Shown: positions 25,144 through 50,893 of the stretch, one piece after another | Position numbering within the stretch: the first letter of the stretch is position 1 | Layout: every line of letters begins with the position of its first letter | DNA from: Polaribacter sp. SA4-12 | GTDB lineage: Bacteria > Bacteroidota > Bacteroidia > Flavobacteriales > Flavobacteriaceae | DNA: 64,000 bases | NCBI RefSeq assembly: GCF_002163675.1 | Contig: NZ_CP019334.1 | Coordinates: 2,895,501-2,959,500 of the forward strand | Direction of reading: 5' to 3' | Program-made: the position numbers and the translations under genes | The notes under the pieces: model-generated | The model's database searches: none | What the model was told of the DNA's origin: nothing | Seen by the model: only the letters and a program-made list of their open reading frames with translations

Positions 25144-25216
25144 AGAAGCTATTTCCTGCTTTCCACTATATCTTTTTGCAAAAAAGCAAAAAGGATGCCG
25201 TTTCAATCCGGGCTAA
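25144..25216. repeat. REP-like flavobacterial palindrome, member 2
   Basis: GAAGCTATTTCCTGC, TTTCCACTATATC, then a TTTTTGC/GCAAAAA hairpin and GGATGCCGTTTCAATCC. Related in layout to the elements at 5257 and 28297. The rest of the ~500-bp gap (25217-25642) shows a 12-bp palindrome ACTTATATAAGT near 25324 and GTTAACGTTAGCG near 25360 but no gene. Confidence 0.6.
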
Positions 25217-25642
25217 ACTTGTTTGTTGGCTATCTGCTTTATTGAAATTAGCTTTTTTATTATTGATTTTTTCACCTCAAAAAAACGAACTCCTCTACGT
25301 GAGATGAACTGAATTCAATAACTACTTATATAAGTGATTAAAACGGGCGTTATATCACTGTTAACGTTAGCGAAAATCAGGAAAAATGAGAAGTGTCTAT
25401 AATATTTTCGTTAGACATTACGTCTGACAAAACAACTGATGTAGAGGGTTTCCATATTTACATATCTTATCAATAACTCTTTCTAAGTGAGAGTAGTCTA
25501 TTAAATAATTGAATAATAATTATTTATAAATCATTATTATCTAGCTGACTAGAGTCATTGTGGGAAGATAATAAGTGTATTAATTTTGAATAAAAGGATG
25601 TGAAAATATCCATTATTGTTAATAATTTTAAAAAAATAAATT

Positions 25643-35367: not shown

Positions 35368-38300
35368 ATGAATTATTCTCAGATAGCAATCTTATTTTTA
35401 CAAGGTACTTTAGTTGCCTTTACAATACTTTTATTATTTCGACTTCGAAGACGATTAGGAATAGGTGTTTTATTCGCTTGCTTGGGGTTATTTCAATTCG
35501 TGCAGGTATTTCTAACAAGTACTGTTTATGTATCAATTACTAATAACTTTTTTGTATCACCAGGTTCTGCCGTTTTTTTTACAGCAAGTCTTTTTGCATT
35601 GCTAATCATATATATAAAAGAAGACGCTAGTGAAACAAGAAAAATAATTTACGCCTTATTTATTGTAAACGTAATAATGGCTATTATTCTACAGACATTG
35701 GGGTGGAGTCTTAGAGAAGTATCAACACATAACCCTTTTAATGTATCAACAAGTCTTTTTGATATTAGTGGAAAGGTTTTAATTATTGGTACAATAGTAC
35801 TCTTTTTAGATTCTTTGTTGATAATAATTATGTTCGAATTTATATCGAAACGAGTGAAGTTTTTATTCTTGCAGATTTGTTTGACGATGTTAATTGTAGT
35901 GAGTTTCGATACTGCTTTTTTTTCAATCTTTGCTCTTTCTGACTTTGAGAACTTAAATTTTATTATAATATCTGGTTTAATTTCAAAAGGAGTTTTTGTT
36001 ATTTTTTACAGTATTCTTTTTTATGTTTATTTAAAATATTTTGATCTAAAAGAAAAGGAATCAACTTTCTTGAAAACAAAAGATGTATTTAAATTACTAA
36101 CCTTTAAGCAAAAGTTTGAATCTGCAGAAAACGAGATTAAAAAAGCTGAAGAGATGTATCGTATATTAACAGATCATTCTACTGATTTAATCTGTTTACA
36201 TAAACCAGATAGTACATTCAAATATATCAGTCCTTCTATAAAAAATCTTTTAGGCTATGAGCAATCAGAGTTTTTAGGTAAACAGGTTTTTGATATAATT
36301 CATAATGATGATATTCAGCCTTTACAGGAAGCAATTGAACAGAAAGTGTTTAGTAATGGTGTTATTGTAGATGTTATTTCTTGCAGGGTTCGTCATAAAG
36401 AAGGACGTTTTATTTGGTTAGAATTTTTAATATCACCAGTCTATAAGGAACAAGAAATTAGCTATTTTGTTTCAACTGGTAGAGATGTTACAGAAAGAGT
36501 GGTTGCAAATGAAAAAATTAAAAACTCTTTAGAGTTATTAGAAAAAAGTGAATACTCCTTGAGTAAAGCGAGTAGGATGGCTAAAATTGGGTATTGGGAA
36601 TATGATAGTGTAACAGACCTTCTTACATGGTCGGATTATGTTTATCATGTTTTTGGATTAGACCCAAAAGAAGATGCCTTAACACGAGAAGAAATGTTGG
36701 TGTTTTTTGATAAAAACTCTCAAAAAAAGTTATTAAAAGCCACTTCCGATCTTGACTCGAAGGATATTCCTTATGATCTTGAGTTGATATTAATCAACCG
36801 AAGAAAAGAAGAAATTTGGCTGAGAACTATAGTTCAGCCTGTATACAACGAGCAAAACGAAGTTATTGGTAGAAGAGGTGTTTTACACAATATTACAGAA
36901 TCTAAAAAAATACAACTTGAATTATCAACTTCCCTAGATTTATTAGAAAAAACTGAGTTTTCTAAGAATAAGGCAAGTAAAATGGCTAAGATTGGTTATT
37001 GGGAGTTTGATGTTGCAACTGATACTATTGTTTGGTCAGATTCTATTTATTCTGTTTTTGGGTACGAATCAAACAAAGAAATTCCGTCACGAAATGAAAT
37101 TCTAGCACTTTATGATAAAGAATCTCAAAAAAAGATAGAACAAGCTAACCTAGAACTTAATTCAACAGGTATTCCTTATGATCTTGAGTTGAGATTAATC
37201 AATTTAAGAAAAGAAGAAGTTTGGGTGCGAAATGTAGTTCAGCCCATTTATAACGAGCAAAATGAAATTGTTGGAAGAAGAGGTGTTTTTCAAGACATTA
37301 CTCTAAGAAAATTAAGACAAGATGAGTTAGACCAGAAAACCGAAAAACTTTATAAATTAAACAATACTTTAAACGCCGCTCAAGAATTAGCCCATGTTGG
37401 AAGCTGGTTCCATGATTTTTCAAGTCAAAAATCAGAATGGTCTGATGAAACATTTCGCATTTGGGGTTTCGATCCAAAAAAACCAACACCAGATGGAGAT
37501 ACTATTTTAGGTAGAATTCACAAAGATGACTTAGATATTTTTAATACCGCTACAGAATTAGTTTATAGTGAAGGAGCTTCATATGATATTGAATATCGAA
37601 TTTGTTTAGACAATGATGAGGTAAAAATGATAAGATCTATTTGTAAACCTATCTTTGGTTCTGATGGTGAGGTGATTAGTTTAAACGGAGTTAACCAAGA
37701 TATTACAGAACAAAAACGAAGACAAGACGAATTAGATCATAAAACCGAAAAACTATATGAATTAAATGATGCTTTAAATCAGGCGCAGAAATTAAGCCAT
37801 ATTGGTAGTTGGCAATGGAATATGGCAACAGATAAAGCAGAATGGTCTGATGAAATGTATCATATTTATGGAGTAACTAAAGAGAATTTTTATCCTTCTA
37901 ATGATAATGTAATGAAAACGGTATTACCTGAAGATTTACATAAACTAGAGAAAGGTTTAAGCTCATTATTAATAGATAAAATGTTTGTTCCTTTTGAGTT
38001 TAGAATAAAGCGACCGTCTGGTGAAATTAGAAACTTATATATTATGGCTCTTGAAAAAAATTCTCAAGAGAATGTTTTTGGAGTTACTAAAGATATCACT
38101 GAAAGAAAAATAATTGAAGAAGAAAACTTAAGGATAAAGAATAGTTATAGAAGTTTGTTTGATAATGCAACAATTTCTATTTGGAATGAAGATTTTACGC
38201 TAGTTTTTAAAGAAATAGAAGAACTTAGAAAATTAGACATACCTAATATTAAAATATATTTAGAAGAAAACCCAGAAGTATTATCATCATTAATTTCAAA

Positions 38301-41300
38301 AGTGGTTGTAAATAGTGTAAATAAAGCCACTTTAAAATTGTTTAAAGCAAAAAACAGTGAAGACTTTTTTAATAATATTGACACTACTTTTGGTGAAGGT
38401 GCAGATAAGGTATTTATAAAACTAATAGAATCTATATGGACCAATAAGAAATCATTTACATCAGAAGTAAATTATAAAAAACTAAATGGAGATGAATTTG
38501 TAGCATTATTTTCTATTCCTATTCCTCAAACAGAAATAGAACAAAAAACAATTCCTATTAGTATTCAAAGTATTCAAAACATAAAAGATGCAAAATCAGC
38601 AGAAAGAGAATCTATAAAAGATTTAAATGCAGCTCAAGAAATAGCTAAAGTAGGAAGCTGGTTTTTTAATGTTGTAACTAAAGAATCAGAATGGTCAGAC
38701 GAAACGTATCGCATTTGGGGTTTTGATTTAAATGAAATTACACCAAATGAAGATATAATTCTAAATAGAATTCACATTGATGATCGAGAATTATTTTTGA
38801 ACGCTGCTGAGTTAGTTTATAACAGGAGAGTCCCATATGATATTGAATATAGAATTTGTTTGCCTAACGATGAGGAAAAATGGATTAGATCTATCTGTAG
38901 GCCAATATTAGATGATAAAGGTAACGTGGTTCTTTTAAAAGGAACCAATCAAGATATTACAGAAAAAAAACGAGCATCTAATGAGCTTGAAAAAGCTGAA
39001 GAGTTGTATCGTTTATTAACTGATAACTCTAATGATATAATCTGTTTGCAAGAACCAGATAGTACTTTTAAATACATGAGTCCTTCTATTAAGAAAGTAT
39101 TAGGCTATGAACCATCAGAATTTATTGGGAAACAAATTTTTAGTATAATTCATAATGATGATATTCAGTCTTTAAAAGATGCGATTGAACAAAAAGTATT
39201 TAGTAGAGAAATTACAGACAATGTTTATTCTTTTAGAGCTCGTCATAAAGACGGACATTTTGTTTGGTTAGAATATCTAACTTCTCCTGTTTATATAGAG
39301 AAAGAAATTAGCTATTTTGTTACTTCTGCTAGAGATATTACCCAAAGAGTAGAAGCAAATGAAATAATTAAAACCTCTCTAGACTTGTTAGGGAAAAGTG
39401 AACGTTCTAAAAACGAAGCAAGTAAGATAGCTAAAATAGGGTATTGGGAACTTGATATTGCAACAGAGACTTTTACGTGGTCTGACTATTTATATCAAAT
39501 TTATGGATTAGATACAAAAGACGAAATTCCATTACTAACAAAAATCATATCATTATACGATAAAGAATCTCAAGAAAAAATAGCACAAGCTGTAAAAGAT
39601 GTTGGTGTTAAGAATTCTTCTTATGATCTTGAATTGAAATTTACCAATTTAAAAAATGAAGAAGTCTGGGAACGAAGAGTAATTCAGGCTGTATACAACA
39701 AACAAAATGAAATTGTTGGTCGAAGAGGTGTTATGCAAGACATTACAGATTCGAAAAAGGCACAGTTTGAATTAGAACGATCTAAAAAAGAAATTGAAAG
39801 TTCTTTAGAGTTGTTAGAAAAGAAAGATTATTCTTTAGAACAGACCAGTAATATTGCTAAGATTGGGTATTGGGAATATGATATTGCTAAAGATTTATTT
39901 ACATGGTCTGAGTATGTTTATACTATTTATGGAATAGATATTAATGACGGAATTCCAACACGAAAAGAAATGTTGGAATTTTATGATAAAGAATCTCAGA
40001 ATAAGCTAGCACAAGCAACCTTAGATCTAAATTTAAATGGTATGCCTTATGATGTTGAGTTAAAGGTTATCAATTTAAGAAAGGAAGTAGTTTGGGTAAG
40101 AAATGTAGTGCAACCTGTATATAACGCCCAAAATGAGATTATTGGAAGAAGAGGTGTTATACAGGATATTACAGCATCTAAAAACGCACAGTTTCAATTA
40201 GAACTATCTAAAAAAGAGATTCAAGTTTCTTTAGAGCTGTTAGAAAAAAGTGAATATTCTAAGAGTGAAGCAAGTAAAATTGCTGAAATAGGATATTGGG
40301 AACATGATTTTATAACAGATAGTGTAATATGGTCTGATTATGTTCATTATATCTTTGGTTCAAATCCTAAAGATGGAGTTCCAGGGAGAATAGAAGTTCT
40401 AGATAAATTTGATAAAGAATCTCAAGAAAAAATAGTGCAAGCAACTTTAGGTCTTACTTCTAAAGGCATTCCTTATGATATTGAATTGTATTTTGTAAAT
40501 ATTAGAAATGAAACTGTTTGGATTAGAAATGTAGCTCAACCAATTTATAACGAACAAAATGAAATTATTGGTAAAAGAGGAGTTATGCAAGATATTACAT
40601 CCTCAAAAAATGCACAATTTGAATTAGAACTTTCTAGACAAGAGATTAAAACTTCTCTTAATTTGTTAGAAAAGAGTGAGTATTCTAAAAACGAAGCTAG
40701 TAAGATAGCTAAAATAGGATACCTCGAAGATGATATTGCAACGGATACTTTTATTTGGTCTGAGCATCTTTATCATATTTTTGGATTCGATCCAAAAGAG
40801 AAGGTTCCGTCACGAAAAGAAATTGCAGCATTTTTTGATGAAGAATCTCAAAAAAAGATGGAAGAAGCCACTTTAGGACTCGATTCGAAGGGAGTTCCTT
40901 TTGATTTGGAGCTGAAGTTAATCAACCTAAGAAAAGAGGAAGTTTGGGCTAGAATTGTTGTTCAGCCTGTATATAACAACCAAAATGAGATTGTTGGAAG
41001 AAGAGGTGTTTTTCAGGATATTACAGCTTCTAAAAAAGGACAAATTGATTTAGAAATTTCTAAAATAGAAATTGAAACCTCTTTATATGAGTTAGAAAGA
41101 AGTGAATTTACTAAAAATGAAGCGAGTAAAATAGCTAAGATAGGGTATTGGGAAAATGATATTGCAACGAATGATTATATATGGTCTGATTATATTTACC
41201 ATATTTTTGGAGTAGATCCAAAAGAAGAAGTTCCCCCAGGAGAAGAAATCGTGCCGCTTTTTGATAAAGAATCTCAAGAAAGAATGGCAGAAGCTCTTTT

Positions 41301-44300
41301 AGAGCTTGATTCTAAAGGTACTTCTGTTGATATTGAGTTGAAATTAATAAATTTTAAAAACGAAGTATTTTGGGTTAGAAATGTAGCGCAGGCTGTATAC
41401 AACGACCAAAACGAGATTGTTGGAAGAAGGGGTGTTACTCAAGATATAACAGCTTCTAAGAAAGCCCAAATTGAGTTAGAGATTTCTAAACAAGAAATTG
41501 AAACCTCTTTATATGAGTTAGAAAAAAGTGAATATACCAAAAATGAGGTAAGTAAGGTAGCTAAAATTGGGTATTGGGAACAAGATATTGCAACCAAAAA
41601 TTATAAATGGTCTGATTATGTTTATCGTATTTTTGGGTTAGACCCAAAAGAAGAAGTACCATCAAGAGAAAAAATTGTGCCACTTTTTGATAAAGAATCT
41701 CAAGAAAAGATGACACAAGCTACTTTAGATCTTGATTTAAAAGGTATTCCTTTTGATTTAGAGTTGAAGTTAATAAACCTAAGAAATGAGGAGGTTTGGG
41801 TAAGACTTATAGTTCAGCCCATTTATAACGACCAAAATGAAATTGATCGAAGAAGAGGTGTTGTACAAGATATAACAGCCTCTAAAAATGCACAAATTGA
41901 GTTAGAGCTTTCTAAACAAGAGATTGAAACCTCTTTATATGAGTTAGAAAAAAGTGAATATACCAAGAATGAGGCGAGTAAAGTAGCTAAAATTGGGTAC
42001 CATGAATATGATATTGCAACAGATGTTTTTATATGGTCTGAGTATCTATATGATATTTTTGGATTCGATAAAACAAAGCGAGTTCCTCCAAGAGAAGAAA
42101 TTGTGCCACTTTTTGATGAAAAATCTCAGAAAAAGATGAAAAAAGCTACTTTAGATCTTGATTTAAAAGGAATTCCTTATGATCTTGAGTTGAAAATAAC
42201 CAACTTAAAAAATGAAGAGGTTTGGGTACGAAACATAGCTGAAGCTGTTTATAATGAACAAAATGAGATTGTTGGTAGAAGAGGGGTTACTCAGAATATT
42301 ACAATTTCTAAAAATGCACAATTTGAAATAGAGCTTTCTAAACAAGAGATTCAAATATCTCTAGAAATGTTAGGGAAAAGTGAGCGTTCTAAGAATGAGG
42401 CAAGTAAGATGGCTAAAATGGGGCATTTAGAATTTGATATTGCATCAGATACTTTTGTCTGGTCAGATTATTTGTATGAAATTTTTGGATTTGATTCAAA
42501 GAAGAAAATTCCGCCACGAAGTGAAATTCTAACACTTTTTGATGAAGAATCACAAAATAAGATATTAGAATCTGTTTTAGAACTTGAAACGAATGGTACT
42601 TCTTATGATATTGAGTTGAAATTTATCAACCAAAGAAAAGAAGACGTTTGGGCACGAAGTGTTGTTCAGCCTGTATATAACGACCAAAACGTAGTTATTG
42701 GAAGAAGAGGTACTTTTCAGAATATTACAGCTTCTAAAGTAGCACAACTTGCATTAGAAGCATCTAGACAAGAAATTAAAACGTCTTTAGAACTGTTAGA
42801 AAGAAGTGAATACTCCTTAAAAGAATCTAGTAAAGTAGCAAAAATAGGATATTATGGGTATGATACTATAAATGATATTATTATATGGTCTGATTATGTT
42901 TATGATATTCTTGGATTTGATATAAAAGATGGAGTTCCTTCAAGAGATGAAAGTATATCAATTATTGATAAAGAATTTATAAAAGAATTTGAGCAAGCCA
43001 ACATTGAACTTATTTCTAAAGGTAACCCTTATGATATTGAGTTAAAAATATTTAATAATATAAAGAAAAAAGAAGCTTGGATACGAATGGTAGTTCAGCC
43101 TGTTTATAACGACCAAAATGAAATTGTTGGTAGAAGAGGTGTTATACAAGATATTTCTGATAGAAAAAAGATTGAAGAAGAACATTTAAGAATAAAAGAT
43201 AATTATAGACGATTATTTGAGAATGCTACAATTTCTATTTGGAACGAAGATTTAACGGATGTATTTAAAGAAATAGATGAACTTAGAAAACTTGAGATAC
43301 CTAATTTTAAAATATATTTAGAACAACATCCAGAAGTATTGTTTTCATTACTTGAAAAAGTGAAAGTAAATACAGTAAACAAAGCTACTTTAGAATTATT
43401 TAAAGCAAAAGATTATCAACAATTTTTAGGTGGTATTCAAAATACCTTTGGTAAAGGGGCTTACAAAGTATTTGGTAATCTTTTAGCTGCAATATGGAAT
43501 AAAGAAAAAACGTTTACTTCAGAAGTAAATTTTAAAACTTTAGAAGGAGAAGAGTTTATAGCATTGTTTTCTGTTTCTATTCCAAAAACAAAATTAGAGC
43601 AAAAATCAGTTCCTGCAAGTATACAAAGTATACAAAGCATAAAAGATGCAGAGTTAGAAAAAAGAAAATCAATAGAGAAATTAAAAGAAGCAGAAAAATT
43701 AGCAAATGTTGGTAGTTGGGTATTTAATATATCTTATCAAAAATCAACTTGGTCTGAAGAAATGTTTTTTATATGGGGGTTTGATTTAAAGAAAGACGCA
43801 CCTGGGTTGGATATCCTTTTAAACAGAATTCATAAAGATGATTTAGAATTATTTAAAAGCTCAGTAGACAAAGGGATTACTAAAGGAATTCCTTATGATA
43901 TTGAGTTTCGAATTTGTCCGCCTAATGAAGAGCAAAAATGGATAAGAGGTATTTGTCAACCTGTTTTTGGAGATAATGGAGATGTTATTCGTTTAACGGG
44001 TAGTAATCAAGATATCACAGAGCAGAAATTAGCAACTGGTGAAATTGAAAAAGCCGAAGAAATGTATAGTCTATTGACTAACAATTCTAACGATATAATC
44101 TGTTTGCAAGAGCTAGATAGTACTTTTACGTATATTAGTCCTTCTATAAAAAGTCTATTGGGTTATGAACAGTCCGATTTTTTAGGTAAACAAATTTTTG
44201 ATCTAGTCCATAAAGATGATATTCAGTCTTTAGTAGATGCTATGGAACAAAGAATTACTAATGGTGTAGAAGATGCTGCTACTTTTAGAGTTCGTCATAA

Positions 44301-45093
44301 ACAAGGGCATTATATTTGGTTAGAATCTCTGTCGTCTCCCGTTTATAAAGATAATGAAATTAGTTATTTTGTTACCTCTTCTAGAGATGTTACAGAATGG
44401 GTTTTAGCAAGATTAGAAATTCAAAAATATCAAACATCACTTCAACAAATGACTACTGAAATGACCTTGATAGAAGAAAAACAGAAAAAAGAAATCGCAT
44501 CAAATATACACGATCATTTAAGTCAATCTTTAGTTATTTCAAAAATGAAAATTAATGAAATGAAAAAGAAATCTGAGTTAAAAATCATTAATGAAGATTT
44601 AAAATTTATTGAATCACATATTTCTGAAGCTTTAGAAAATAGCCGTAAAATTACTTATGAACTTTCACCACCAGTTTTATATCAATTAGGTATTATTGAT
44701 GCTTTAAATTGGTTGTTAGAGGATGTGGAAGCTACTCACAAGATTGAATGTATCGTTAATAGTAATGTAAATAGTATTAAACTGAGTGATGCTAATTCAA
44801 TTTTACTTTATAGGTGTATACAAGAAGTAATAAAAAATGCTGTAAAATATGCCAATGCATCTTTATTAACTTTAAATCTTGATAAAAACAAACTCGGAAT
44901 TAATATTATCCTTACAGATAATGGTGGTGGGTTTGATACTTCTACATTAAATGATTATCAAAATCATTCAGGATCTGGTTTCGGATTATTTGCTGTTCAA
45001 GAACGTGTTAAAAACATACAAGGAGAGTTTACAATAACATCAAAAATAAATACAGGAACATCTGTTAAAATTTTTATACCTTTAGCTATATGA
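35368..45093 (+). CDS. Giant multi-PAS sensor histidine kinase
   Basis: 3241 residues. Residues 1-240 hold about seven hydrophobic segments; the SPGSAVFFTASLFALLIIY region suggests a 7TM sensor. Then about 20 PAS domains, which I sort by sequence into types A-D in the order A-BB-CC-D-C-A-B9-D-C-A. Approximate starts: A at 260, 1210, 2896; B at 408, 543, then 1358 to 2494 every 142 residues; C at 677, 812, 1095, 2781; D at 927, 2612. Many end in DITxxK and have PAC-like tails, joined by amphipathic linkers such as SKQEIETSLYELEKSE. The C-terminus is a NarL-type core: H-box IHDHLSQ with His3048, N-box KNAVKYANA, G-boxes DNGGGFD and GSGFGLFAVQERV. No receiver domain. It overlaps the LuxR-type regulator by 4 bp. 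Ligands unknown; most kinases have one to a few PAS domains. Confidence 0.93.
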   Translation: MNYSQIAILFLQGTLVAFTILLLFRLRRRLGIGVLFACLGLFQFVQVFLTSTVYVSITNNFFVSPGSAVFFTASLFALLIIYIKEDASETRKIIYALFIVNVIMAIILQTLGWSLREVSTHNPFNVSTSLFDISGKVLIIGTIVLFLDSLLIIIMFEFISKRVKFLFLQICLTMLIVVSFDTAFFSIFALSDFENLNFIIISGLISKGVFVIFYSILFYVYLKYFDLKEKESTFLKTKDVFKLLTFKQKFESAENEIKKAEEMYRILTDHSTDLICLHKPDSTFKYISPSIKNLLGYEQSEFLGKQVFDIIHNDDIQPLQEAIEQKVFSNGVIVDVISCRVRHKEGRFIWLEFLISPVYKEQEISYFVSTGRDVTERVVANEKIKNSLELLEKSEYSLSKASRMAKIGYWEYDSVTDLLTWSDYVYHVFGLDPKEDALTREEMLVFFDKNSQKKLLKATSDLDSKDIPYDLELILINRRKEEIWLRTIVQPVYNEQNEVIGRRGVLHNITESKKIQLELSTSLDLLEKTEFSKNKASKMAKIGYWEFDVATDTIVWSDSIYSVFGYESNKEIPSRNEILALYDKESQKKIEQANLELNSTGIPYDLELRLINLRKEEVWVRNVVQPIYNEQNEIVGRRGVFQDITLRKLRQDELDQKTEKLYKLNNTLNAAQELAHVGSWFHDFSSQKSEWSDETFRIWGFDPKKPTPDGDTILGRIHKDDLDIFNTATELVYSEGASYDIEYRICLDNDEVKMIRSICKPIFGSDGEVISLNGVNQDITEQKRRQDELDHKTEKLYELNDALNQAQKLSHIGSWQWNMATDKAEWSDEMYHIYGVTKENFYPSNDNVMKTVLPEDLHKLEKGLSSLLIDKMFVPFEFRIKRPSGEIRNLYIMALEKNSQENVFGVTKDITERKIIEEENLRIKNSYRSLFDNATISIWNEDFTLVFKEIEELRKLDIPNIKIYLEENPEVLSSLISKVVVNSVNKATLKLFKAKNSEDFFNNIDTTFGEGADKVFIKLIESIWTNKKSFTSEVNYKKLNGDEFVALFSIPIPQTEIEQKTIPISIQSIQNIKDAKSAERESIKDLNAAQEIAKVGSWFFNVVTKESEWSDETYRIWGFDLNEITPNEDIILNRIHIDDRELFLNAAELVYNRRVPYDIEYRICLPNDEEKWIRSICRPILDDKGNVVLLKGTNQDITEKKRASNELEKAEELYRLLTDNSNDIICLQEPDSTFKYMSPSIKKVLGYEPSEFIGKQIFSIIHNDDIQSLKDAIEQKVFSREITDNVYSFRARHKDGHFVWLEYLTSPVYIEKEISYFVTSARDITQRVEANEIIKTSLDLLGKSERSKNEASKIAKIGYWELDIATETFTWSDYLYQIYGLDTKDEIPLLTKIISLYDKESQEKIAQAVKDVGVKNSSYDLELKFTNLKNEEVWERRVIQAVYNKQNEIVGRRGVMQDITDSKKAQFELERSKKEIESSLELLEKKDYSLEQTSNIAKIGYWEYDIAKDLFTWSEYVYTIYGIDINDGIPTRKEMLEFYDKESQNKLAQATLDLNLNGMPYDVELKVINLRKEVVWVRNVVQPVYNAQNEIIGRRGVIQDITASKNAQFQLELSKKEIQVSLELLEKSEYSKSEASKIAEIGYWEHDFITDSVIWSDYVHYIFGSNPKDGVPGRIEVLDKFDKESQEKIVQATLGLTSKGIPYDIELYFVNIRNETVWIRNVAQPIYNEQNEIIGKRGVMQDITSSKNAQFELELSRQEIKTSLNLLEKSEYSKNEASKIAKIGYLEDDIATDTFIWSEHLYHIFGFDPKEKVPSRKEIAAFFDEESQKKMEEATLGLDSKGVPFDLELKLINLRKEEVWARIVVQPVYNNQNEIVGRRGVFQDITASKKGQIDLEISKIEIETSLYELERSEFTKNEASKIAKIGYWENDIATNDYIWSDYIYHIFGVDPKEEVPPGEEIVPLFDKESQERMAEALLELDSKGTSVDIELKLINFKNEVFWVRNVAQAVYNDQNEIVGRRGVTQDITASKKAQIELEISKQEIETSLYELEKSEYTKNEVSKVAKIGYWEQDIATKNYKWSDYVYRIFGLDPKEEVPSREKIVPLFDKESQEKMTQATLDLDLKGIPFDLELKLINLRNEEVWVRLIVQPIYNDQNEIDRRRGVVQDITASKNAQIELELSKQEIETSLYELEKSEYTKNEASKVAKIGYHEYDIATDVFIWSEYLYDIFGFDKTKRVPPREEIVPLFDEKSQKKMKKATLDLDLKGIPYDLELKITNLKNEEVWVRNIAEAVYNEQNEIVGRRGVTQNITISKNAQFEIELSKQEIQISLEMLGKSERSKNEASKMAKMGHLEFDIASDTFVWSDYLYEIFGFDSKKKIPPRSEILTLFDEESQNKILESVLELETNGTSYDIELKFINQRKEDVWARSVVQPVYNDQNVVIGRRGTFQNITASKVAQLALEASRQEIKTSLELLERSEYSLKESSKVAKIGYYGYDTINDIIIWSDYVYDILGFDIKDGVPSRDESISIIDKEFIKEFEQANIELISKGNPYDIELKIFNNIKKKEAWIRMVVQPVYNDQNEIVGRRGVIQDISDRKKIEEEHLRIKDNYRRLFENATISIWNEDLTDVFKEIDELRKLEIPNFKIYLEQHPEVLFSLLEKVKVNTVNKATLELFKAKDYQQFLGGIQNTFGKGAYKVFGNLLAAIWNKEKTFTSEVNFKTLEGEEFIALFSVSIPKTKLEQKSVPASIQSIQSIKDAELEKRKSIEKLKEAEKLANVGSWVFNISYQKSTWSEEMFFIWGFDLKKDAPGLDILLNRIHKDDLELFKSSVDKGITKGIPYDIEFRICPPNEEQKWIRGICQPVFGDNGDVIRLTGSNQDITEQKLATGEIEKAEEMYSLLTNNSNDIICLQELDSTFTYISPSIKSLLGYEQSDFLGKQIFDLVHKDDIQSLVDAMEQRITNGVEDAATFRVRHKQGHYIWLESLSSPVYKDNEISYFVTSSRDVTEWVLARLEIQKYQTSLQQMTTEMTLIEEKQKKEIASNIHDHLSQSLVISKMKINEMKKKSELKIINEDLKFIESHISEALENSRKITYELSPPVLYQLGIIDALNWLLEDVEATHKIECIVNSNVNSIKLSDANSILLYRCIQEVIKNAVKYANASLLTLNLDKNKLGINIILTDNGGGFDTSTLNDYQNHSGSGFGLFAVQERVKNIQGEFTITSKINTGTSVKIFIPLAI
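39400..43170 (+). repeat. Tandem array of nine 426-bp PAS-encoding repeats
   Basis: The GGG/GGA of the KIGYWE codons recurs at 39439, 39865, 40291, 40717, 41143, 41569, 41995, 42421 and 42847, always 426 bp (142 codons) apart. Units 7-9 of type B share long near-identical stretches in the linker (GAAACCTCTTTATATGAGTT), a sign of recent duplication. The two type-B units at 36589 and 36994 are 405 bp apart, shorter by 21 bp. Confidence 0.9.
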
Positions 45094-45743
45094 CTTATAT
45101 AAACGAAATTAAAATAATATTAGTTGACGATCATAAATTACTTAGAGATGGTTTGAGAAATATTATAGAACAAAGGTCGAATATGCATATAATTGGCGAA
45201 GCTTCTGATGGTAGAGAAGCTATAAAAGTATCTTCAAAATTAATGCCAGATGTTATTGTTATGGATGTTGCAATGCCTGGTATGAATGGAGTAGAAGCAG
45301 CAAAACAGATTCATAAAGCGCAACCAGACATAAAAATAATAGGTCTTTCTATGCATTCTGGTAAGCAATTTATACAAGGTATGTTTAAAGCGGGTGCTTT
45401 TGGTTATTTGTTAAAAGATGGAGATGCAGATGAATTGATTACAGCAATTACTACCGTAGTTCAAAATAAAAGATACCTATCAAAAGACATTAACCAAGAG
45501 TTTCTTGCGGTACTTAAAAGTGGAGAAGATATTGTAAAAGCACTTTTGAGTTCTAGAGAGAAAGAAGTTTTACAGTTAATTGCAGAAGGAAATTCTTCTA
45601 AAAAGATAGGAGAAATATTGTTTTTAAGCTCAAAAACGATAGATGTTCATAGAAATAATATTATGAGAAAAATAGATTTACATACTATTCCTGAATTAAC
45701 AAAATATGCTATTCAAAAAGGATTAACCACATTAGATATTTAA
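45090..45743 (+). CDS. NarL/LuxR-type response regulator
   Basis: 217 residues. Receiver domain with acidic pair Asp13-Asp14 and phospho-acceptor Asp59 (VIVMDVAMPG), conserved Lys in LLKDGDAD. C-terminal LuxR helix-turn-helix (SREKEVLQLIAEGNSSKKIGEI, SSKTIDVHRNNIMRKI). Its ATG overlaps the kinase stop (ATGA), so they are translationally coupled and form a cognate NarX/NarL-like pair. Targets are not shown by sequence; the secreted-protein array downstream is a candidate. Confidence 0.95.
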   Translation: MTYINEIKIILVDDHKLLRDGLRNIIEQRSNMHIIGEASDGREAIKVSSKLMPDVIVMDVAMPGMNGVEAAKQIHKAQPDIKIIGLSMHSGKQFIQGMFKAGAFGYLLKDGDADELITAITTVVQNKRYLSKDINQEFLAVLKSGEDIVKALLSSREKEVLQLIAEGNSSKKIGEILFLSSKTIDVHRNNIMRKIDLHTIPELTKYAIQKGLTTLDI

Positions 45744-45867: not shown

Positions 45868-46236
45868 TTGGTACTGGACTCAACATTAACGGATTTATTA
45901 ATAGTAGAAGATAACCCTTTTATTGGGGAAAGTATTGTTAATGCAGCTAAAGAACATAGTGGTATAGGTGCTCTTCATTTAACAGAAACTTTACAAGAAG
46001 CAATTTCTTTTTTAAATGTTACTAATTTTGGTGTAATTGTCCTTGACTTAAATTTGCCAGATGGAAGTGGTTTAGAGCTATTGAAATTGATTAAAGAAAA
46101 ACAAATAAAAACTAAAGTTTTTGTTTTTTCTGTAAATACAGAACTAAAAAAAATTTGTTTAAGATATGGAGCTTCTGCTTTTTTCGATAAAGCGAATGAT
46201 TTTGATAAATTAATTGAAACGATTAAAGCAGCTTAA
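45868..46236 (+). CDS. Stand-alone receiver-domain protein
   Basis: 122 residues: a single CheY-like receiver with Asp15 (IVEDN), phospho-acceptor Asp60 (VIVLDLNLPDGSG) and Lys in FFDKAND. No output domain. It may be a phosphate sink or an intermediary for the giant kinase upstream. The start must be TTG at 45868: the frame is open from 45832 but has no ATG or GTG before the first beta strand. It has its own consensus promoter and lies 124 bp after the LuxR-type gene. 46237-46502 holds no gene I can see. Confidence 0.82.
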   Translation: MVLDSTLTDLLIVEDNPFIGESIVNAAKEHSGIGALHLTETLQEAISFLNVTNFGVIVLDLNLPDGSGLELLKLIKEKQIKTKVFVFSVNTELKKICLRYGASAFFDKANDFDKLIETIKAA

Positions 46237-46502
46237 CTAAAAAGTGGTTTTTCTTTAAATTTAACAATTCTAATATCTTTTTATTTTGACTAAGTTTAGC
46301 AATTACAAAAAGTTAGGTGTTAATAGGTTAGTTTTACTTTTCTTTTAATAAAATTATAGAAGTAAATACCAATATCATATTCTTCAATAATCTACTAATT
46401 AGATACACAAATATCTTCTAATCTTAGGAGTAAATAAATCCATAAAAATTTCTAAGTAAAACCTTTTTTGAAGAGAAGATTTTTGAGATTTTATTTAATA
46501 TA

Positions 46503-46532
46503 AAAAAAATCCAGCTTTAGGCTGGATTTTTT
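46503..46532 (-). terminator. Terminator of unit 1 (R1-R2, paralog 1)
   Basis: Arms AAAAAATCCAGC and GCTGGATTTTTT, A- and T-runs on both sides. It closes the minus-strand transcript containing R2 and R1. Confidence 0.82.
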
Positions 46533-46537
46533 AAGGG

Positions 46538-46627
46538 TTCATATCATAAAGAAAGAGGATTGGAGAAAGTTAGAGAGACCCCTACGTACCTAGAGCAATC
46601 TCCTTTGTCCTCTATCTTTTATATGAA
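46538..46627 (-). ncRNA. R element 1 (structured 3' UTR RNA)
   Basis: 90-nt element. Nested pairings: TTCATAT/ATATGAA (46538-46544 with 46621-46627), AGAGGA/TCCTCT (46554-46559 with 46608-46613), GGAGA/TCTCC (46562-46566 with 46599-46603). The apical part carries the conserved ACGTAGGGGT (minus-strand reading). Second of two tandem R copies downstream of paralog 1. Confidence 0.7.
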
Positions 46628-46685
46628 ATGTGTTCGTTTAATTCTTTGTTTTATTAGGTCTAATTATAAGTTTTGTTTTAAGGGG

Positions 46686-46776
46686 TTCATATCATAAAGA
46701 AAGAGGATAGGAGAAAGTTAGAGAGACCCCTACGTATCAAGAGCAATCTCCTTTGTCCTCTGTTTGTTTATATGAA
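46686..46776 (-). ncRNA. R element 2 (structured 3' UTR RNA)
   Basis: Same three nested stems as R1 with outer TTCATAT/ATATGAA. It begins just after the stop of paralog 1, 148 bp from R1. Confidence 0.7.
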
Positions 46777-46781
46777 AAGTA

Positions 46782-47216
46782 TTAGTTTATTTTTTTCATT
46801 TTACCTGTCCAACTTCTACCACCTAATGTAGATTGGTAATAGATATAACCATTTTTAACTTTATTTATTTTCATGTTTAATTTAGTACCGTTTCTAAAAG
46901 GAAAATTAGGTAGGTTAGATTCAAGTATTGTCATTTCACATTCCGTTTCAGAAGTCCATAAAAGACTAGATTTAATAGAGTGTTGTTTATTATTAAAATA
47001 TTCGATATGTCTGTTTTCTGTAAAAACAACTAAAACATTATCACCTTTATATTTATATGTATAAGTAGTTTCTTCTAATAAAGGAACTATTTTATTACTC
47101 GCTTCATTATAATTAACATTGTCATAATTATTCGTTGGAGTATTCATTGCTATATCTTGTGCTCCAGTTGAAAAAGATATTATTAGAACTGTAATAAGTA
47201 GTTGTAATTTTTTCAT
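46782..47216 (-). CDS. Secreted ~144-residue array protein, paralog 1
   Basis: 144 residues: signal peptide (MKKLQLLITVLIISFSTGA), then a variable stretch of about 12 residues and a highly conserved beta-rich domain (TYTYKYKGDNVLVVFTE; WTSETECEMTILE; YIYYQSTLGGRSWTGKMKK) with one Cys. Almost identical to paralog 2 and close to paralogs 3 and 4. No known family recognised; a lipocalin-like or small beta-barrel fold is possible. Followed by two R elements. Confidence 0.8.
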   Translation of the reverse strand: MKKLQLLITVLIISFSTGAQDIAMNTPTNNYDNVNYNEASNKIVPLLEETTYTYKYKGDNVLVVFTENRHIEYFNNKQHSIKSSLLWTSETECEMTILESNLPNFPFRNGTKLNMKINKVKNGYIYYQSTLGGRSWTGKMKKIN

Positions 47217-47330
47217 AATAAAATTTTTTGAGGGTTAAAAATCAATCATACATATACTAATAAGTACACTATAAAGATATATAAGATTCTAAGGCAACTC
47301 AATAGGTAATTTTCTTATTTTTTCAATTAA
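47217..47330 (-). promoter_or_regulatory. Shared promoter/leader, paralog 1
   Basis: Minus strand: TTGAG, then TATCTTTA (47272-47279, near the -7 consensus), a TACTTATTAGTATATGTA imperfect palindrome, and AACCCTC about 13 bases before ATG. Conserved in all four paralogs and, in modified form, the barrel gene. Confidence 0.6.
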
Positions 47331-47393
47331 GGTAAAAAAGTATATAATTTTTAGTGAGTTTGTTTATTTGAATAATTTGTTTTTTTATAAAAT

Positions 47394-47420
47394 AAAAATC
47401 CAGCTTAAAGCTGGATTTTT
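47394..47420 (-). terminator. Terminator of unit 2 (R3-R5, paralog 2)
   Basis: Arms AAAAATCCAGC/GCTGGATTTTT around TTAAA. Confidence 0.85.
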
Positions 47421-47426
47421 TAGGGG

Positions 47427-47516
47427 TTCATATAATAAAGAAAAAGGAATGGAGAAAGTTAGAGAGACCCCTACGTATCTTGAGCAATCTCCTCTGTCCT
47501 CTATTTTTTATATGAA
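47427..47516 (-). ncRNA. R element 3
   Basis: Outer TTCATAT/ATATGAA retained. The AGAGGA arm has become AAAGGA on the plus strand, which on the minus strand keeps pairing through a G-U pair. Last of three tandem copies after paralog 2. Confidence 0.65.
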
Positions 47517-47574
47517 ATATTTTTGTTTGTTTTTTTTATTTTCCCCGTCTAACTATAAAATCTGTTTTTAATGA

Positions 47575-47666
47575 TTCAAATAAAAAAGAAAGAGGATTGG
47601 AGAAAGTTAGAGAAACCCCTACGTGTCTATAGCAATCTCCTTTTTCCTCTATTCTTTTTACATGAA
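47575..47666 (-). ncRNA. R element 4
   Basis: AGAGGA/TCCTCT and GGAGA/TCTCC intact. The outer stem is weaker and the apical region has ACGTGTC. The spacers on both sides resemble the end of the paralog gene. Confidence 0.65.
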
Positions 47667-47728
47667 AAAATGTATTCTTTTAATTTTTTATTTTATCAAG
47701 TTTACTAATCAATTCTGTTTTTTAATAA

Positions 47729-47825
47729 GTTCATTTAAATAAAGAAAGGGGATCGGAGAAAGTTAGAGAGACCCCTACGTATCAAGAGCAATCTCCTTTG
47801 TCCCCTATTCTTTTATATAAAGAAC
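47729..47825 (-). ncRNA. R element 5
   Basis: Compensatory change: AGGGGA (47747-47752) pairs with TCCCCT (47801-47806) where other copies have AGAGGA/TCCTCT. The outer arms have become GTTC/GAAC. First copy after paralog 2. Confidence 0.68.
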
Positions 47826-47826
47826 A

Positions 47827-48261
47827 TTAATTTAATTTTTTCATTTTACCTGTCCAGCTTCTACCACCTAAGGTAGATTGGTAATAGATATAACCATTTT
47901 TAACTTTATTTATTTTCATGTTTAATTTAGTACCGTTTCTAAAAGGAAAATTAGGAAGATTAGATTCAAGTATCGTCATTTCACATTCCGTTTCAGAAGT
48001 CCATAAAAGACTAGATTTAATAGAGTGTTGTTTATTATTAAAATATTCTATATGTCTGTTTTCAGTAAAAACAACTAAAACATTATCACCTTTGTATTTG
48101 TATGTATAAGTAGTTTCCTCTAATAAAGGAACTATTTTATTACTCGCTTCATTATAATTAACATTGTCATAATTACTCGCTTGAGTATTCATTGCTAAAT
48201 CTTGTGCTCCAGTTGAAAAAGATATTATTAGAACTGTAATAAGTAGTTGTAATTTTTTCAT
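47827..48261 (-). CDS. Secreted ~144-residue array protein, paralog 2
   Basis: 144 residues, differing from paralog 1 mainly in the short segment after the signal peptide (DLAMNTQASN versus DIAMNTPTNN). The same conserved single-Cys beta domain. The stop is 2 bp before R5, and three R copies follow. The strong identity to paralog 1 implies recent duplication or gene conversion of the pair. Function unknown. Confidence 0.8.
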   Translation of the reverse strand: MKKLQLLITVLIISFSTGAQDLAMNTQASNYDNVNYNEASNKIVPLLEETTYTYKYKGDNVLVVFTENRHIEYFNNKQHSIKSSLLWTSETECEMTILESNLPNFPFRNGTKLNMKINKVKNGYIYYQSTLGGRSWTGKMKKLN

Positions 48262-48370
48262 AATAAAATTTTTTGAGGGTTAAAAATCAATCATACATAT
48301 ATTAATAAGTACACTATAAAGATATATAAGATTCTAAGGCGACTCAATAGGTAATTTTCTTATTCATTCA
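48262..48370 (-). promoter_or_regulatory. Shared promoter/leader, paralog 2
   Basis: Nearly identical to 47217-47330, including TATCTTTA, the TATTAGTATATGTA segment and AACCCTC in the leader. Confidence 0.6.
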
Positions 48371-48470
48371 ATTAAGATAAAAAAATATGATTTTTAGTGA
48401 GTTTGTTAATTTGAGTAATTTGTGTTTTTATAGAAAAAAAGATTCAACAATAAGCCGGATCTTTTAATAA

Positions 48471-48536
48471 GGAAGAGGGTAGGAGAAAGTTAAAGATATC
48501 CCCACATCTCCTGAAGCGATCTCCTTTGTCCTCTAT
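48471..48536 (-). ncRNA. R element 6 (divergent subtype)
   Basis: Core stem retained with GGAGA/TCTCC. The apical part is different: minus strand AGATGT, GGGG, ATATCT makes a 6-bp hairpin with one G-U pair that exists only on the minus strand. Lies after the barrel gene; a weak terminator-like stem AAAGATT/GATCTTT is to the left. Confidence 0.6.
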
Positions 48537-48556
48537 TGTTTTTTTAATAGTTTAAT

Positions 48557-49066
48557 TTATAGTCGATATTTTATTCCAATAAAACCACTAACTATATAAT
48601 CTTCTTCGCAGTTATAAAGTACTTTTAAGTCTTCTCTTTCTGTAAGTTGCCATGTACAAATTAACTTTAACTTATTATTTATTTTGTAGTTAAGTTCTCC
48701 ACTGAGGCTAAAACTGTAAAAACCTTCTTTTTGTCTGTATATTTTTCCATAATCTGCATAGGCGCCAGCACCTATTTTTCCATAAACACTTTTAACAACA
48801 TATCCTGCACCAATAGCGTAACGCTTGTAGTTTTTACCAACTAAATCTGCATACTCTAAAGAAAGGTAAGTTGATAAATGGTTTTTTTTAAGATTGTAAA
48901 CAGGAATTTCAACCTTAGATAAAAGATTAACAGTTAAAGGATCGTTTCCTTTGTTGTCTCCTACTAAGAATAGTCTTACATCTTGTTGTAGAGATATTTC
49001 TATATTGTTTTGGCTATAACTATAAAGACCAAGCATAAAGCAGCAAGTAAATAATATTTTTTTCAT
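48557..49066 (-). CDS. Small outer-membrane beta-barrel protein
   Basis: About 169 residues from ATG 49066; an upstream start at 49093 is not supported. Signal peptide to SYSQ, then alternating beta strands (YLSLEYADLVGKNYKRYAIGAGY, YSFSLSGELNYKINNKLKLICTW) ending in IKYRL, with a terminal-type aromatic pattern. Not similar to the four paralogs but inserted in their array with an R element after it and a related leader, so likely co-regulated. Confidence 0.75.
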   Translation of the reverse strand: MKKILFTCCFMLGLYSYSQNNIEISLQQDVRLFLVGDNKGNDPLTVNLLSKVEIPVYNLKKNHLSTYLSLEYADLVGKNYKRYAIGAGYVVKSVYGKIGAGAYADYGKIYRQKEGFYSFSLSGELNYKINNKLKLICTWQLTEREDLKVLYNCEEDYIVSGFIGIKYRL

Positions 49067-49165
49067 AATTGGGGGTTTATGTAAATTGTACATATACTAA
49101 TATGTACACTATAAAAGTATCGAAGATTGTGAGGTAATTCAATAGGTGAATTTCTTAATCGTTCT
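49067..49165 (-). promoter_or_regulatory. Barrel-gene promoter/leader with perfect palindrome
   Basis: GTACATAT/ATATGTAC (49088-49107) is a perfect 8-bp-arm palindrome where the paralogs have an imperfect one. The leader has ACCCCC (49071-49076, minus strand) four bases before ATG. Confidence 0.6.
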
Positions 49166-49213
49166 AATCAAGATTAAAAAGAAGCTCTTTTGTTAAGTTT
49201 TTTTTATAAATAA

Positions 49214-49238
49214 AAACCCAGCTTTATGCTGGATTTTC
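49214..49238 (-). terminator. Terminator of unit with R7 and paralog 3
   Basis: AAAACCCAGC/GCTGGATTTT stem with one mismatch, T-run on the minus strand. Confidence 0.75.
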
Positions 49239-49245
49239 TAGGGGG

Positions 49246-49335
49246 TTCACGTCATAAAGAAAGAGGATCGGAGAAAGCTAGAGAGACCCCTACGTATCAA
49301 GAGCAATCTCCTTTGTCCTCTGCTTTATTATATAA
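49246..49335 (-). ncRNA. R element 7
   Basis: AGAGGA/TCCTCT (49262-49267 with 49316-49321) and GGAGA/TCTCC intact; the apical region matches R2 and R5. The outer arms no longer pair. Confidence 0.68.
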
Positions 49336-49341
49336 AAATAA

Positions 49342-49776
49342 TTAGTTTAATTTTTTCATTTTACCTGTCCAACTTCTACCACCTAAGGTAGATTGGTAAT
49401 AGATATACCCATTTTTAACTTTATTAATTTTCATATTTAATTTAGTTCCGTTTCTAAAAGGGAAATTCGGTAGATTAGATTCAAGTATTGTCATCTCACA
49501 TTCCGTTTCAGAAGTCCATACAAGATTAGATTTTATAGAATGTTTTTTATTATTAAAGTATTCTATATGTCTGTTTTTAGTAAAAACAACTAAAACATTA
49601 TCTCCTTTATATTTATAAGTATAAGTAGTTTCCTCTAATAAAGGAATGATCTTTTTATTGGCTTCATTATAATTAACGTCATCATAATTACTCATTTGAG
49701 TATTCAATGCTAAGTCTTGGGCTCCAGTTGAAAAAGTTATTATTATAACTGTAATAAGTAGCTGTAATTTTTTCAT
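49342..49776 (-). CDS. Secreted ~144-residue array protein, paralog 3
   Basis: 144 residues from ATG 49776 (the frame continues upstream to 49806 with an unlikely start). Nearly identical to paralog 4; differs from paralogs 1 and 2 at a few sites (KNRHIEYFNNKKHS, SNLVWTSE). Signal peptide MKKLQLLITVIIITFSTGA. One R element follows. Function unknown. Confidence 0.8.
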   Translation of the reverse strand: MKKLQLLITVIIITFSTGAQDLALNTQMSNYDDVNYNEANKKIIPLLEETTYTYKYKGDNVLVVFTKNRHIEYFNNKKHSIKSNLVWTSETECEMTILESNLPNFPFRNGTKLNMKINKVKNGYIYYQSTLGGRSWTGKMKKLN

Positions 49777-49885
49777 AATAAAAATTTTTTGAGGGTTAAA
49801 AATCAATTACACATATACTAATAAGTACACTATAAAGATATATAAGATTATAAGGCAACTCAATAGGTAATTTTCTTAATCTTTC
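49777..49885 (-). promoter_or_regulatory. Shared promoter/leader, paralog 3
   Basis: Same elements as 47217-47330, with slightly different T/A-run lengths. Confidence 0.58.
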
Positions 49886-49950
49886 TAATTAGAGTTAAAA
49901 AAAGAGGACTTTTAATAAGTTTTTATTGTTGATCAATTTGTTTTTTATAA

Positions 49951-49980
49951 AAAAAGATCCAGCTATAAGCTGGATCTTTG
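49951..49980 (-). terminator. Terminator of unit with R8 and paralog 4
   Basis: AAAAGATCCAGC/GCTGGATCTTT stem, extended by a GA/TC pair relative to the others. Confidence 0.82.
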
Positions 49981-49984
49981 CAAG

Positions 49985-50076
49985 GGGGTTTGTTTAATAA
50001 GAAAGAGGTAGAAGAAAGTTAAAGATATCCCCATATCTCAAAGAACGATCTCCTTTGCCCTCTTTTTTTTATATGA
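49985..50076 (-). ncRNA. R element 8 (divergent subtype)
   Basis: AGAGG/CCTCT (50004-50008 with 50059-50063). The apical hairpin AGATAT/ATATCT (50023-50028 with 50033-50038) is perfect, with GGGG as the loop on the minus strand. The inner arm change pairs by G-U only on the minus strand. Confidence 0.66.
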
Positions 50077-50082
50077 AAAGGA

Positions 50083-50517
50083 TTAGTTTAATTTTTTCAT
50101 CTTACCTGTCCAGCTTCTACCACCTAAAGTAGATTGGTAATAGATATACCCATTTTTAACTTTATTAATTTTCATGTTTAATTTAGTTCCGTTTCTAAAA
50201 GGGAAATTCGGTAGATTAGATTCAAGTATTGTCATCTCGCATTCCGTTTCAGAAGTCCATACAAGATTAGATTTTATAGAATGTTTTTTATTATTAAAGT
50301 ATTCTATATGTCTGTTTTTAGTAAAAACGACTAAAACATTATCTCCTTTATATTTATAAGTATAAGTAGTTTCCTCTAATAAAGGAATGATCTTTTTATT
50401 AGCTTCATTATAATTAACGTTATCATAATTACTCGCTTGAGTATTCAATGCTAAGTCTTGGGCTCCAGTTGAAAAAGTTATTATTATAACTGTAATAAGT
50501 AGTTGTAATTTTTTCAT
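50083..50517 (-). CDS. Secreted ~144-residue array protein, paralog 4
   Basis: 144 residues, almost identical to paralog 3; the post-signal segment is DLALNTQASN. Conserved beta-rich single-Cys domain as in the other copies. It is the first unit of the array read on the minus strand. One R8 copy follows its stop by 6 bp. Function unknown. Confidence 0.8.
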   Translation of the reverse strand: MKKLQLLITVIIITFSTGAQDLALNTQASNYDNVNYNEANKKIIPLLEETTYTYKYKGDNVLVVFTKNRHIEYFNNKKHSIKSNLVWTSETECEMTILESNLPNFPFRNGTKLNMKINKVKNGYIYYQSTLGGRSWTGKMKKLN

Positions 50518-50620
50518 AATAAAGGTTTTTGAGGGTTAAAAATCAATTATACATATACTAATAAGTACACTATAAAGATATATAAGATTCTAAGGAAATT
50601 CAATAGGTAATTTTCTTAAT
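50518..50620 (-). promoter_or_regulatory. Shared promoter/leader, paralog 4
   Basis: Same elements as the other paralogs. 50621-50893 beyond it shows no gene I can support. Confidence 0.58.
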
Positions 50621-50893
50621 CTTTCCATTATGGGTGAGAAAGAAGGTGTTTACTGAGGTTATGTTTAGATCATAAAAAATTAAATAAAACATAATTTAAG
50701 ATTCCTTTATCAGCACCATATTTTTCAATAACTTGAACCAGATGATGCAAATGTTTTTAAGGATTTTAATAAAATGAATAGGTGGGTGTTTTTATATAAT
50801 ATTCTTGTTGTAAAGAAGAGGGAAGTGTAGTTAATGGTTTACATAATATTTAGAAATAGAAGGAGTCTGTTTTTGTTGAGTAATTTGTTTAGC

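Follow-up and report, generated by a model that had tools for sequence, protein, structure and literature searches.

In this study of a 64,000-nucleotide (nt) stretch of the Polaribacter sp. SA4-12 genome (contig NZ_CP019334.1, positions 2,895,501 to 2,959,500; here called the window), we describe R, an element of about 90 nt that occurs eight times on the minus strand between positions 46540 and 50076, in the 3' regions of a gene array. R is probably a real RNA part, since its hairpin also lies 3' of the same gene in three related genomes. The eight elements reported in the initial annotation were located where it had placed them: a genome-wide BLAST search (3.99 Mb) with R2 as the query returned exactly these eight places, and a covariance model run on the whole genome returned the same eight and no ninth. 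The array (46500 to 50660) comprises five minus-strand transcription units, namely, four copies of a gene for a 144-amino-acid (aa) protein and one gene for a 178-aa protein (Table 1). At least one R stands at the end of each unit, and two units carry extra tandem copies (R2-R1 and R5-R4-R3). The annotation had placed R between each gene stop and the downstream terminator; R2, R5, R6, R7, and R8 do directly follow a stop codon, whereas R1, R3, and R4 are the additional tandem copies. Provided that the genes are transcribed, R occupies the position of a small RNA (sRNA) derived from a 3' untranslated region (UTR), between stop codon and terminator and on the same strand.

Table 1. Positions in the window of the R copies, the array genes and their signals, and the neighboring genes
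Feature	Positions	Strand	Remarks
R1	46540..46627	-	Distal tandem copy of the first unit; terminator next
R2	46688..46774	-	Directly 3' of the first 144-aa gene
R3	47429..47515	-	Distal tandem copy
R4	47577..47664	-	Middle tandem copy
R5	47731..47819	-	Directly 3' of the second 144-aa gene; AGGGGA/TCCCCT double change
R6	48460..48547	-	Directly 3' of the 178-aa gene; apical stem resembles copies in other genomes
R7	49248..49334	-	Directly 3' of the third 144-aa gene
R8	49989..50076	-	Directly 3' of the fourth 144-aa gene; most similar to R6
144-aa gene, first	46782..47216	-	Signal-peptide-like start; only a subthreshold Lipocalin_4 match
144-aa gene, second	47827..48261	-
178-aa gene	48557..49066	-	178 aa from first ATG, 169 aa from likely start; signal-peptide-like start
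144-aa gene, third	49342..49776	-
144-aa gene, fourth	50083..50517	-
Promoter box TAAGAAAWTYACCTATTGA, first 144-aa gene	47299..47317	-
Promoter box, second 144-aa gene	48344..48362	-
Promoter box, 178-aa gene	49139..49157	-
Promoter box, third 144-aa gene	49860..49878	-
Promoter box, fourth 144-aa gene	50600..50618	-
Terminator after R1	46504..46532	-	Listed on minus; nearly symmetrical by eye
Terminator after R3	47394..47420	-	Terminator scan
Terminator after R8	49953..49979	-	Terminator scan
CCCCC tract	49071..49075	-	Leader of the 178-aa gene, just before the likely ATG
LuxR-type response regulator	45090..45743	+	GacA-like; candidate activator of the box
Receiver-only response regulator	45868..46236	+	Conserved neighbor
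3241-aa protein	35368..45093	+	By eye, sensor kinase with repeated PAS-like units

On the minus strand, R folds into a hairpin with stems P2 (AGAGGA/TCCTCT) and P3 (GGAGA/TCTCC), a three-pair P4, and an apical P5 that carries a loop of five or six bases. Standard pairs occupy 94.4% of the 144 pair cells in the eight window copies, against 52.8 to 64.6% when the strands are slid by one to three columns. The observed share of paired cells was reached by 2 of 500 shuffles, as was the covariation score; four pairs are changed on both sides, a count reached by 12 of the 500, and the number of further pair types was reached by 464. One of the four double-changed pairs depends on R8, for whose P2 a second register, a perfect one, is also available. 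The compensatory change AGGGGA/TCCCCT that had been noticed in R5 is a true double change, and the single changes said to stay paired as G-U on the minus strand were recovered, those of R3 (P2) and R8 (P3) in the pair analysis and that of the R6 apical hairpin in its predicted fold. The one change in R6 that favors the plus strand is also present, as an A-C in P2. An additional small pairing of the GCT/AAC type, absent from the initial annotation, appears in six copies as C-A when read on the minus strand, which makes it G-U on the plus strand.

A 12-row alignment of copies from several genomes, without rows G032b and G075_1b (which MAFFT had shifted), has 77.8% of its cells paired, compared with 40.5 to 60.8% after sliding. 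The cross-genome covariation test is positive but not strong: of 500 shuffles, 9 attained the covariation score, 22 the double-changed cells, 41 the paired percentage, 170 the count of double-changed pairs, and 483 that of further pair types. Shuffling the columns of 13 rows (R5, whose core is identical to that of R2, was left out) gave z values of -2.99 for the sense strand (6 of 300 shuffles as low) and -2.96 for the antisense strand (9 of 300). In hand-made segments, the GGG of the apical loop lies at the same place in all 14 distinct copies from four genomes, while the stem below it varies and the types of stem pairs differ among genomes; the loops read GTAGGG, GTGGGG, ATGGGG, TTAGGG, or AAGGG.

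The searches with R models covered genomes of the genus and of the family; where a search spanned more than 40 genomes, filters were stricter and weak matches are lost. A model derived solely from the eight copies of the window, run on 166 genus genomes including that of the window, detected R in G032 (best expectation value [E], 7e-14), G160 (1.5e-12), and G075 (6.5e-9). Ten further genus genomes reached an E of 0.1 or better, the strongest at 9.5e-4, which is no more than chance gives among 166. With a second model, trained on 12 copies, the same four genomes stood at an E below 1e-8 and the next genome at 0.0013. Weak matches in G028, G077, G273, G559, G086, G079, G149, G016, and G094 and on C3 of G075 looked by eye like chance, with short, simple stems or the R core missing. 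Among 397 family genomes, a sample that includes the window genome and some of the genus, just two others reached an E of 0.01, both with short stems and chance-like. The initial annotation had proposed a model-based search across the Bacteroidota; as far as searched, in the genus and the family, R is not Bacteroidota-wide, with 4 of 166 genus genomes positive and nothing convincing in the family sample.

The four R-bearing genomes hold eight, four, two, and one copies, 15 in total and 14 distinct; those with one and two copies are only 76% and 68% complete. The three relatives are metagenome assemblies (contigs L090, L091, and L094), in each of which R immediately follows the 178-aa orthologue on its 3' side; G032 and G075 have it in tandem. 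On a protein tree of 15 orthologues, 11 come from genomes where R was not found, and the R-bearers are scattered, which requires four changes, at least two of them forced. This patchy presence suggests repeated loss or transfer.

What R does is a matter of more tentative judgment. One possible reading, and the one that we pursue, is that R is a structured 3'-UTR module of a single regulon, whose G-rich loop pairs with C-tracts and thereby tunes the array messages; the position of R, its conserved structure, its recurrence in four genomes, and the common promoter box are the parts of this reading that have support. When the neighboring two-component system is on, the LuxR-type regulator would activate all five promoters, and each array mRNA would bear one to three R hairpins that display the conserved GGG of the apical loop. 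This GGG would pair with CCCCC before the 178-aa start, with CCCTC in the 144-aa leaders, and with the CCCC that closely follows several R copies; acting in cis or from sister mRNAs, R would thereby adjust the translation or stability of the array messages, with extra tandem copies providing a higher dose. C-tracts are indeed found near R: CCCTC in the 144-aa leaders and CCCC just 3' of R2, R3, R7, and R8. Among 190 sampled genes (the window plus 400 kb, with starts assigned by rule of thumb), only the 178-aa gene has CCCC within 40 nt of its start codon. The 1.9 kb of noncoding DNA in the array contain nine CCCC starts, eight of them outside R, whereas the intergenic background has 0.62 per kb; the array copies are paralogous and not independent. 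For predicted pairing with four R loops, the 178-aa leader ranks 5th to 9th of the 190. Also in favor of this reading are the double changes that preserve pairing, the invariant apical GGG, the separate history of R and genes described below, and the exact box, five of whose six places are in the array. To our knowledge, little is known about small-RNA control in the Flavobacteriia; one compact locus with a sensor, a regulator, a common promoter box, and a repeated, variable 3'-UTR hairpin would offer a testable case of regulon-wide 3'-UTR control, and the four genomes, with 1, 2, 4, and 8 copies of R, would form a natural series of doses for it.

Several observations weigh against pairing between the G-loop and the leaders. 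By eye the pairing would amount to just 4 to 5 bp, the 144-aa leaders rank only 23rd to 70th of 190, and the predicted loop-leader pairing stands out only moderately; the genome yielded no Hfq, CsrA, or RRM protein that might assist it. CCCC is present in the last 40 nt before the start in 9 of 14 scorable 178-aa orthologues (L073 could not be scored), 7 of which are in genomes without R; because the tract is kept without R, it would have another job or partner. Taken in isolation, the minus-strand cores of R1, R2, and R5 favor a different fold, and in R1, R2, R3, and R5 the apical GGG is paired more than it is free. To these points are added the cross-genome number of double-changed pairs, given above, and the behavior of the window copies on the plus strand, given below.

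Equally likely is a function at the 3' end of the message, in which R is a stability or termination hairpin that protects against exonucleases, or a former gene terminator, and does not pair with any target. The element is always placed at the 3' end of a unit, and eight T follow the hairpin in G160 and in one G075 copy (G075_2b), with one A between in the second; within 18 nt, the longest T run reaches 5 in two other copies from relatives and 5 and 6 in R3 and R4. This run is only 2 to 3 in six of the eight window copies, however, and R1, R3, and R8 have separate terminators downstream. Terminators after R6 and R7 were seen by eye only. A role of this kind also leaves the conserved GGG loop and the multiple copies per mRNA unexplained.

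It is rather unlikely that R is processed into an sRNA of about 90 nt that acts in trans on other genes. Its location between stop codon and terminator would suit such an origin, and 21 UTR-derived sRNA candidates are reported for Bacteroides thetaiotaomicron in the part of PMC7366714 consulted. R2, R4, and R5 lack a terminator of their own, however, and the 190 sampled leaders offered no convincing target outside the array for the loop, the only part of R compared, some of the higher-ranked leaders belonging to open reading frames with doubtful starts.

The initial annotation held that R is a real RNA read mainly on the minus strand. This is supported in part: R has a conserved structure, no Rfam match, and a 3'-UTR place, and the copies in the relatives favor the minus strand, but by stability and z-score most of the window copies favor the plus strand. 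There, R1 to R5 are more stable on the plus strand, the sense strand being the more stable in only three of eight copies, and the z-score against shuffles is better on the plus strand in all eight (seven of eight in another run); the single-sequence z-scores on the minus strand are modest, from -0.2 to -3.4. The GCT/AAC site, which pairs only as a plus-strand G-U in six copies, favors the plus strand as well, and G160 has an opposite-strand box promoter (L094:8648, minus strand) that is aimed straight into R. In the copies from other genomes, by contrast, the sense strand is the more stable in six of six and has the better z-score in four of six. Over P3 to P5, there are 11 sense-only G-U cells, scattered over several sites, against 7 antisense-only cells, 6 of which are a single site in six paralogous copies. 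The array has no plus-strand match to the promoter box at up to three mismatches, and the symmetrical-looking terminator next to R1 separates it from the receiver gene. Because of this strand evidence and the location of R in 3' UTRs, we regard action on the sense (mRNA) strand as likely, and a plus-strand antisense or independent RNA as quite unlikely.

A DNA-level repeat without RNA function, whether a recombination site or a hitchhiker on gene duplication, is an improbable account of R, for although the window copies all lie in one array, where they were spread by duplication, although R7 looks exchanged between units, and although presence in the genus is patchy, pairing has been kept through double changes, sense G-U pairs are in excess, the loop is conserved, place and orientation are constant, and scans of viral contigs and plasmid records gave no match to R, with a single 21-base match in phage records. 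The concern that matches might only follow the coding gene was half borne out: R always comes after the 178-aa gene in the other three genomes, yet the window has R after 144-aa genes too, and the similarities of R and of the genes disagree. R7 and R8 are 72% identical while their genes are 97% identical, and R7 and R2 are 93% identical while their genes are 91% identical. R therefore has a history of its own, having moved or been converted independently of the coding part.

The spacers between tandem copies were compared with gene ends by dinucleotide shuffling, without the outer arm of R itself. Likeness to a decayed gene end is clear for the R3-R4 spacer (0 of 1,000 shuffles), weak for the R4-R5 spacer (32 of 1,000), and not significant for the R1-R2 spacer (184 of 1,000). 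Based on this likeness, the tandem copies may stem from the loss of intervening genes between duplicated units, which is clear only for R3-R4. An extended form of the G-loop pairing reading, in which the regulon is wired to itself by RNA, with 3'-UTR doses of G-loop hairpins kissing the leader C-tracts and copies kept and multiplied even after the loss of their own gene, seems very doubtful to us.

R does not correspond to a described element in the sources searched. No Rfam family reached its gathering threshold on R, and the region from 46480 to 50120 gave fifteen weak matches, all below threshold. A literature search yielded no title on such an element, and the passages of PMC7366714, PMC9723704, and PMC2864571 that were consulted describe none. 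A coding function was rejected by eye, with early stops in R1 and R4.

The L17 downstream element is a motif of 3' UTRs. Like R, it (RF01708) and Flavo-1 (RF01705), which is listed for the Bacteroidetes, are candidate structured RNAs from comparative genomics in the portion of PMC2864571 consulted; unlike these motifs of Weinberg et al. (2010), R matches no Rfam model at threshold and was found in only four genomes. A Flavo-1 RNA was detected in the window at 25148 to 25218 on the minus strand (67.8 bits), the sole Rfam match there; according to PMC9723704, Flavo-1 matches in Flavobacterium psychrophilum offered no real hint of function. The 3'-UTR-derived sRNAs of B. thetaiotaomicron share with R a place between the mRNA stop codon and the terminator (PMC7366714, in part), but each mRNA would bear one to three copies of R, and R occurs on several mRNAs of one array.

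Sponge RNAs of the Gac/Rsm type, such as CsrB and RsmZ, also combine a GacA-like regulator with a repeated G-rich hairpin RNA. Those that bind CsrA or RsmA display repeated GGA in hairpin loops. R differs in lying inside mRNAs and not in a gene of its own, and a CsrA sponge was rejected: PF02599 has no match in this genome (G000), with 3 of 14 control genomes positive, and the GGA of R lies in the arms of P2 and P3, not in a loop. Integron attC arrays resemble the locus in that small genes are each followed by an imperfect palindrome; attC sites have RYYYAAC and GTTRRRY core sites at their ends. The aligned R copies have GTTAGAG or GTTAAAG (GCTAGAG in R7) inside the hairpin, which does not fit GTTRRRY; each of the five array genes, unlike the genes of integron arrays, also has its own promoter box.

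The array proteins may be secreted, to judge from their signal-peptide-like starts. The 178-aa protein has no Pfam or NCBIfam match, nor was it matched in phage, plasmid, or viral collections. An earlier promoter pattern, tried first, had no match. Exact copies of the box TAAGAAAWTYACCTATTGA stand at six places in the genome, which are the five array promoters and a distant paralogue of the 178-aa family (G000:C1:3076255-3076725), at which no R was found; when up to three mismatches are allowed, the matches number 41, compared with 24 when the pattern is reversed. In G160, the 230 bases upstream of the 178-aa gene contain no box. The neighboring LuxR-type regulator, proposed as the activator, may bind the box; its best NCBIfam score is with MctR, and it scores high with UvrY/SirA/GacA, both below the cutoffs.

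In relatives, neighbors were named by reading their sequences, and contigs were equated by coordinates (L093 with G138, L095 with G114, and L097 with G086, all of the same genus). In L090, L091, L093, L095, and L097, the neighbors of the 178-aa gene are a receiver-only regulator, a LuxR-type regulator, and a large putative kinase, and in the last three of these contigs, a 144-aa gene is present at that locus too. In L094 and L098, the 178-aa gene lacks those neighbors, and L092 stops at a contig end. The proteins in the place of the 3241-aa protein are much shorter in relatives (1723, 1498, 1279, or 903 aa).

A gene at position 400258 of the genome (G000) has a box with two mismatches and a C-terminal region that by eye resembles type IX secretion cargo. 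Five relatives have a box promoter downstream of the 178-aa gene (L090:8780, L092:8533 and 8940, L097:8519, L063:2040, and L070:2056); by eye, it leads into a short stretch that contains a C-tract but no long reading frame and that ends in a terminator, mostly GCTAAAC/GTTTAGC. Such a box-led stretch, of which L092 has two, may be a small-RNA gene belonging to this regulon.

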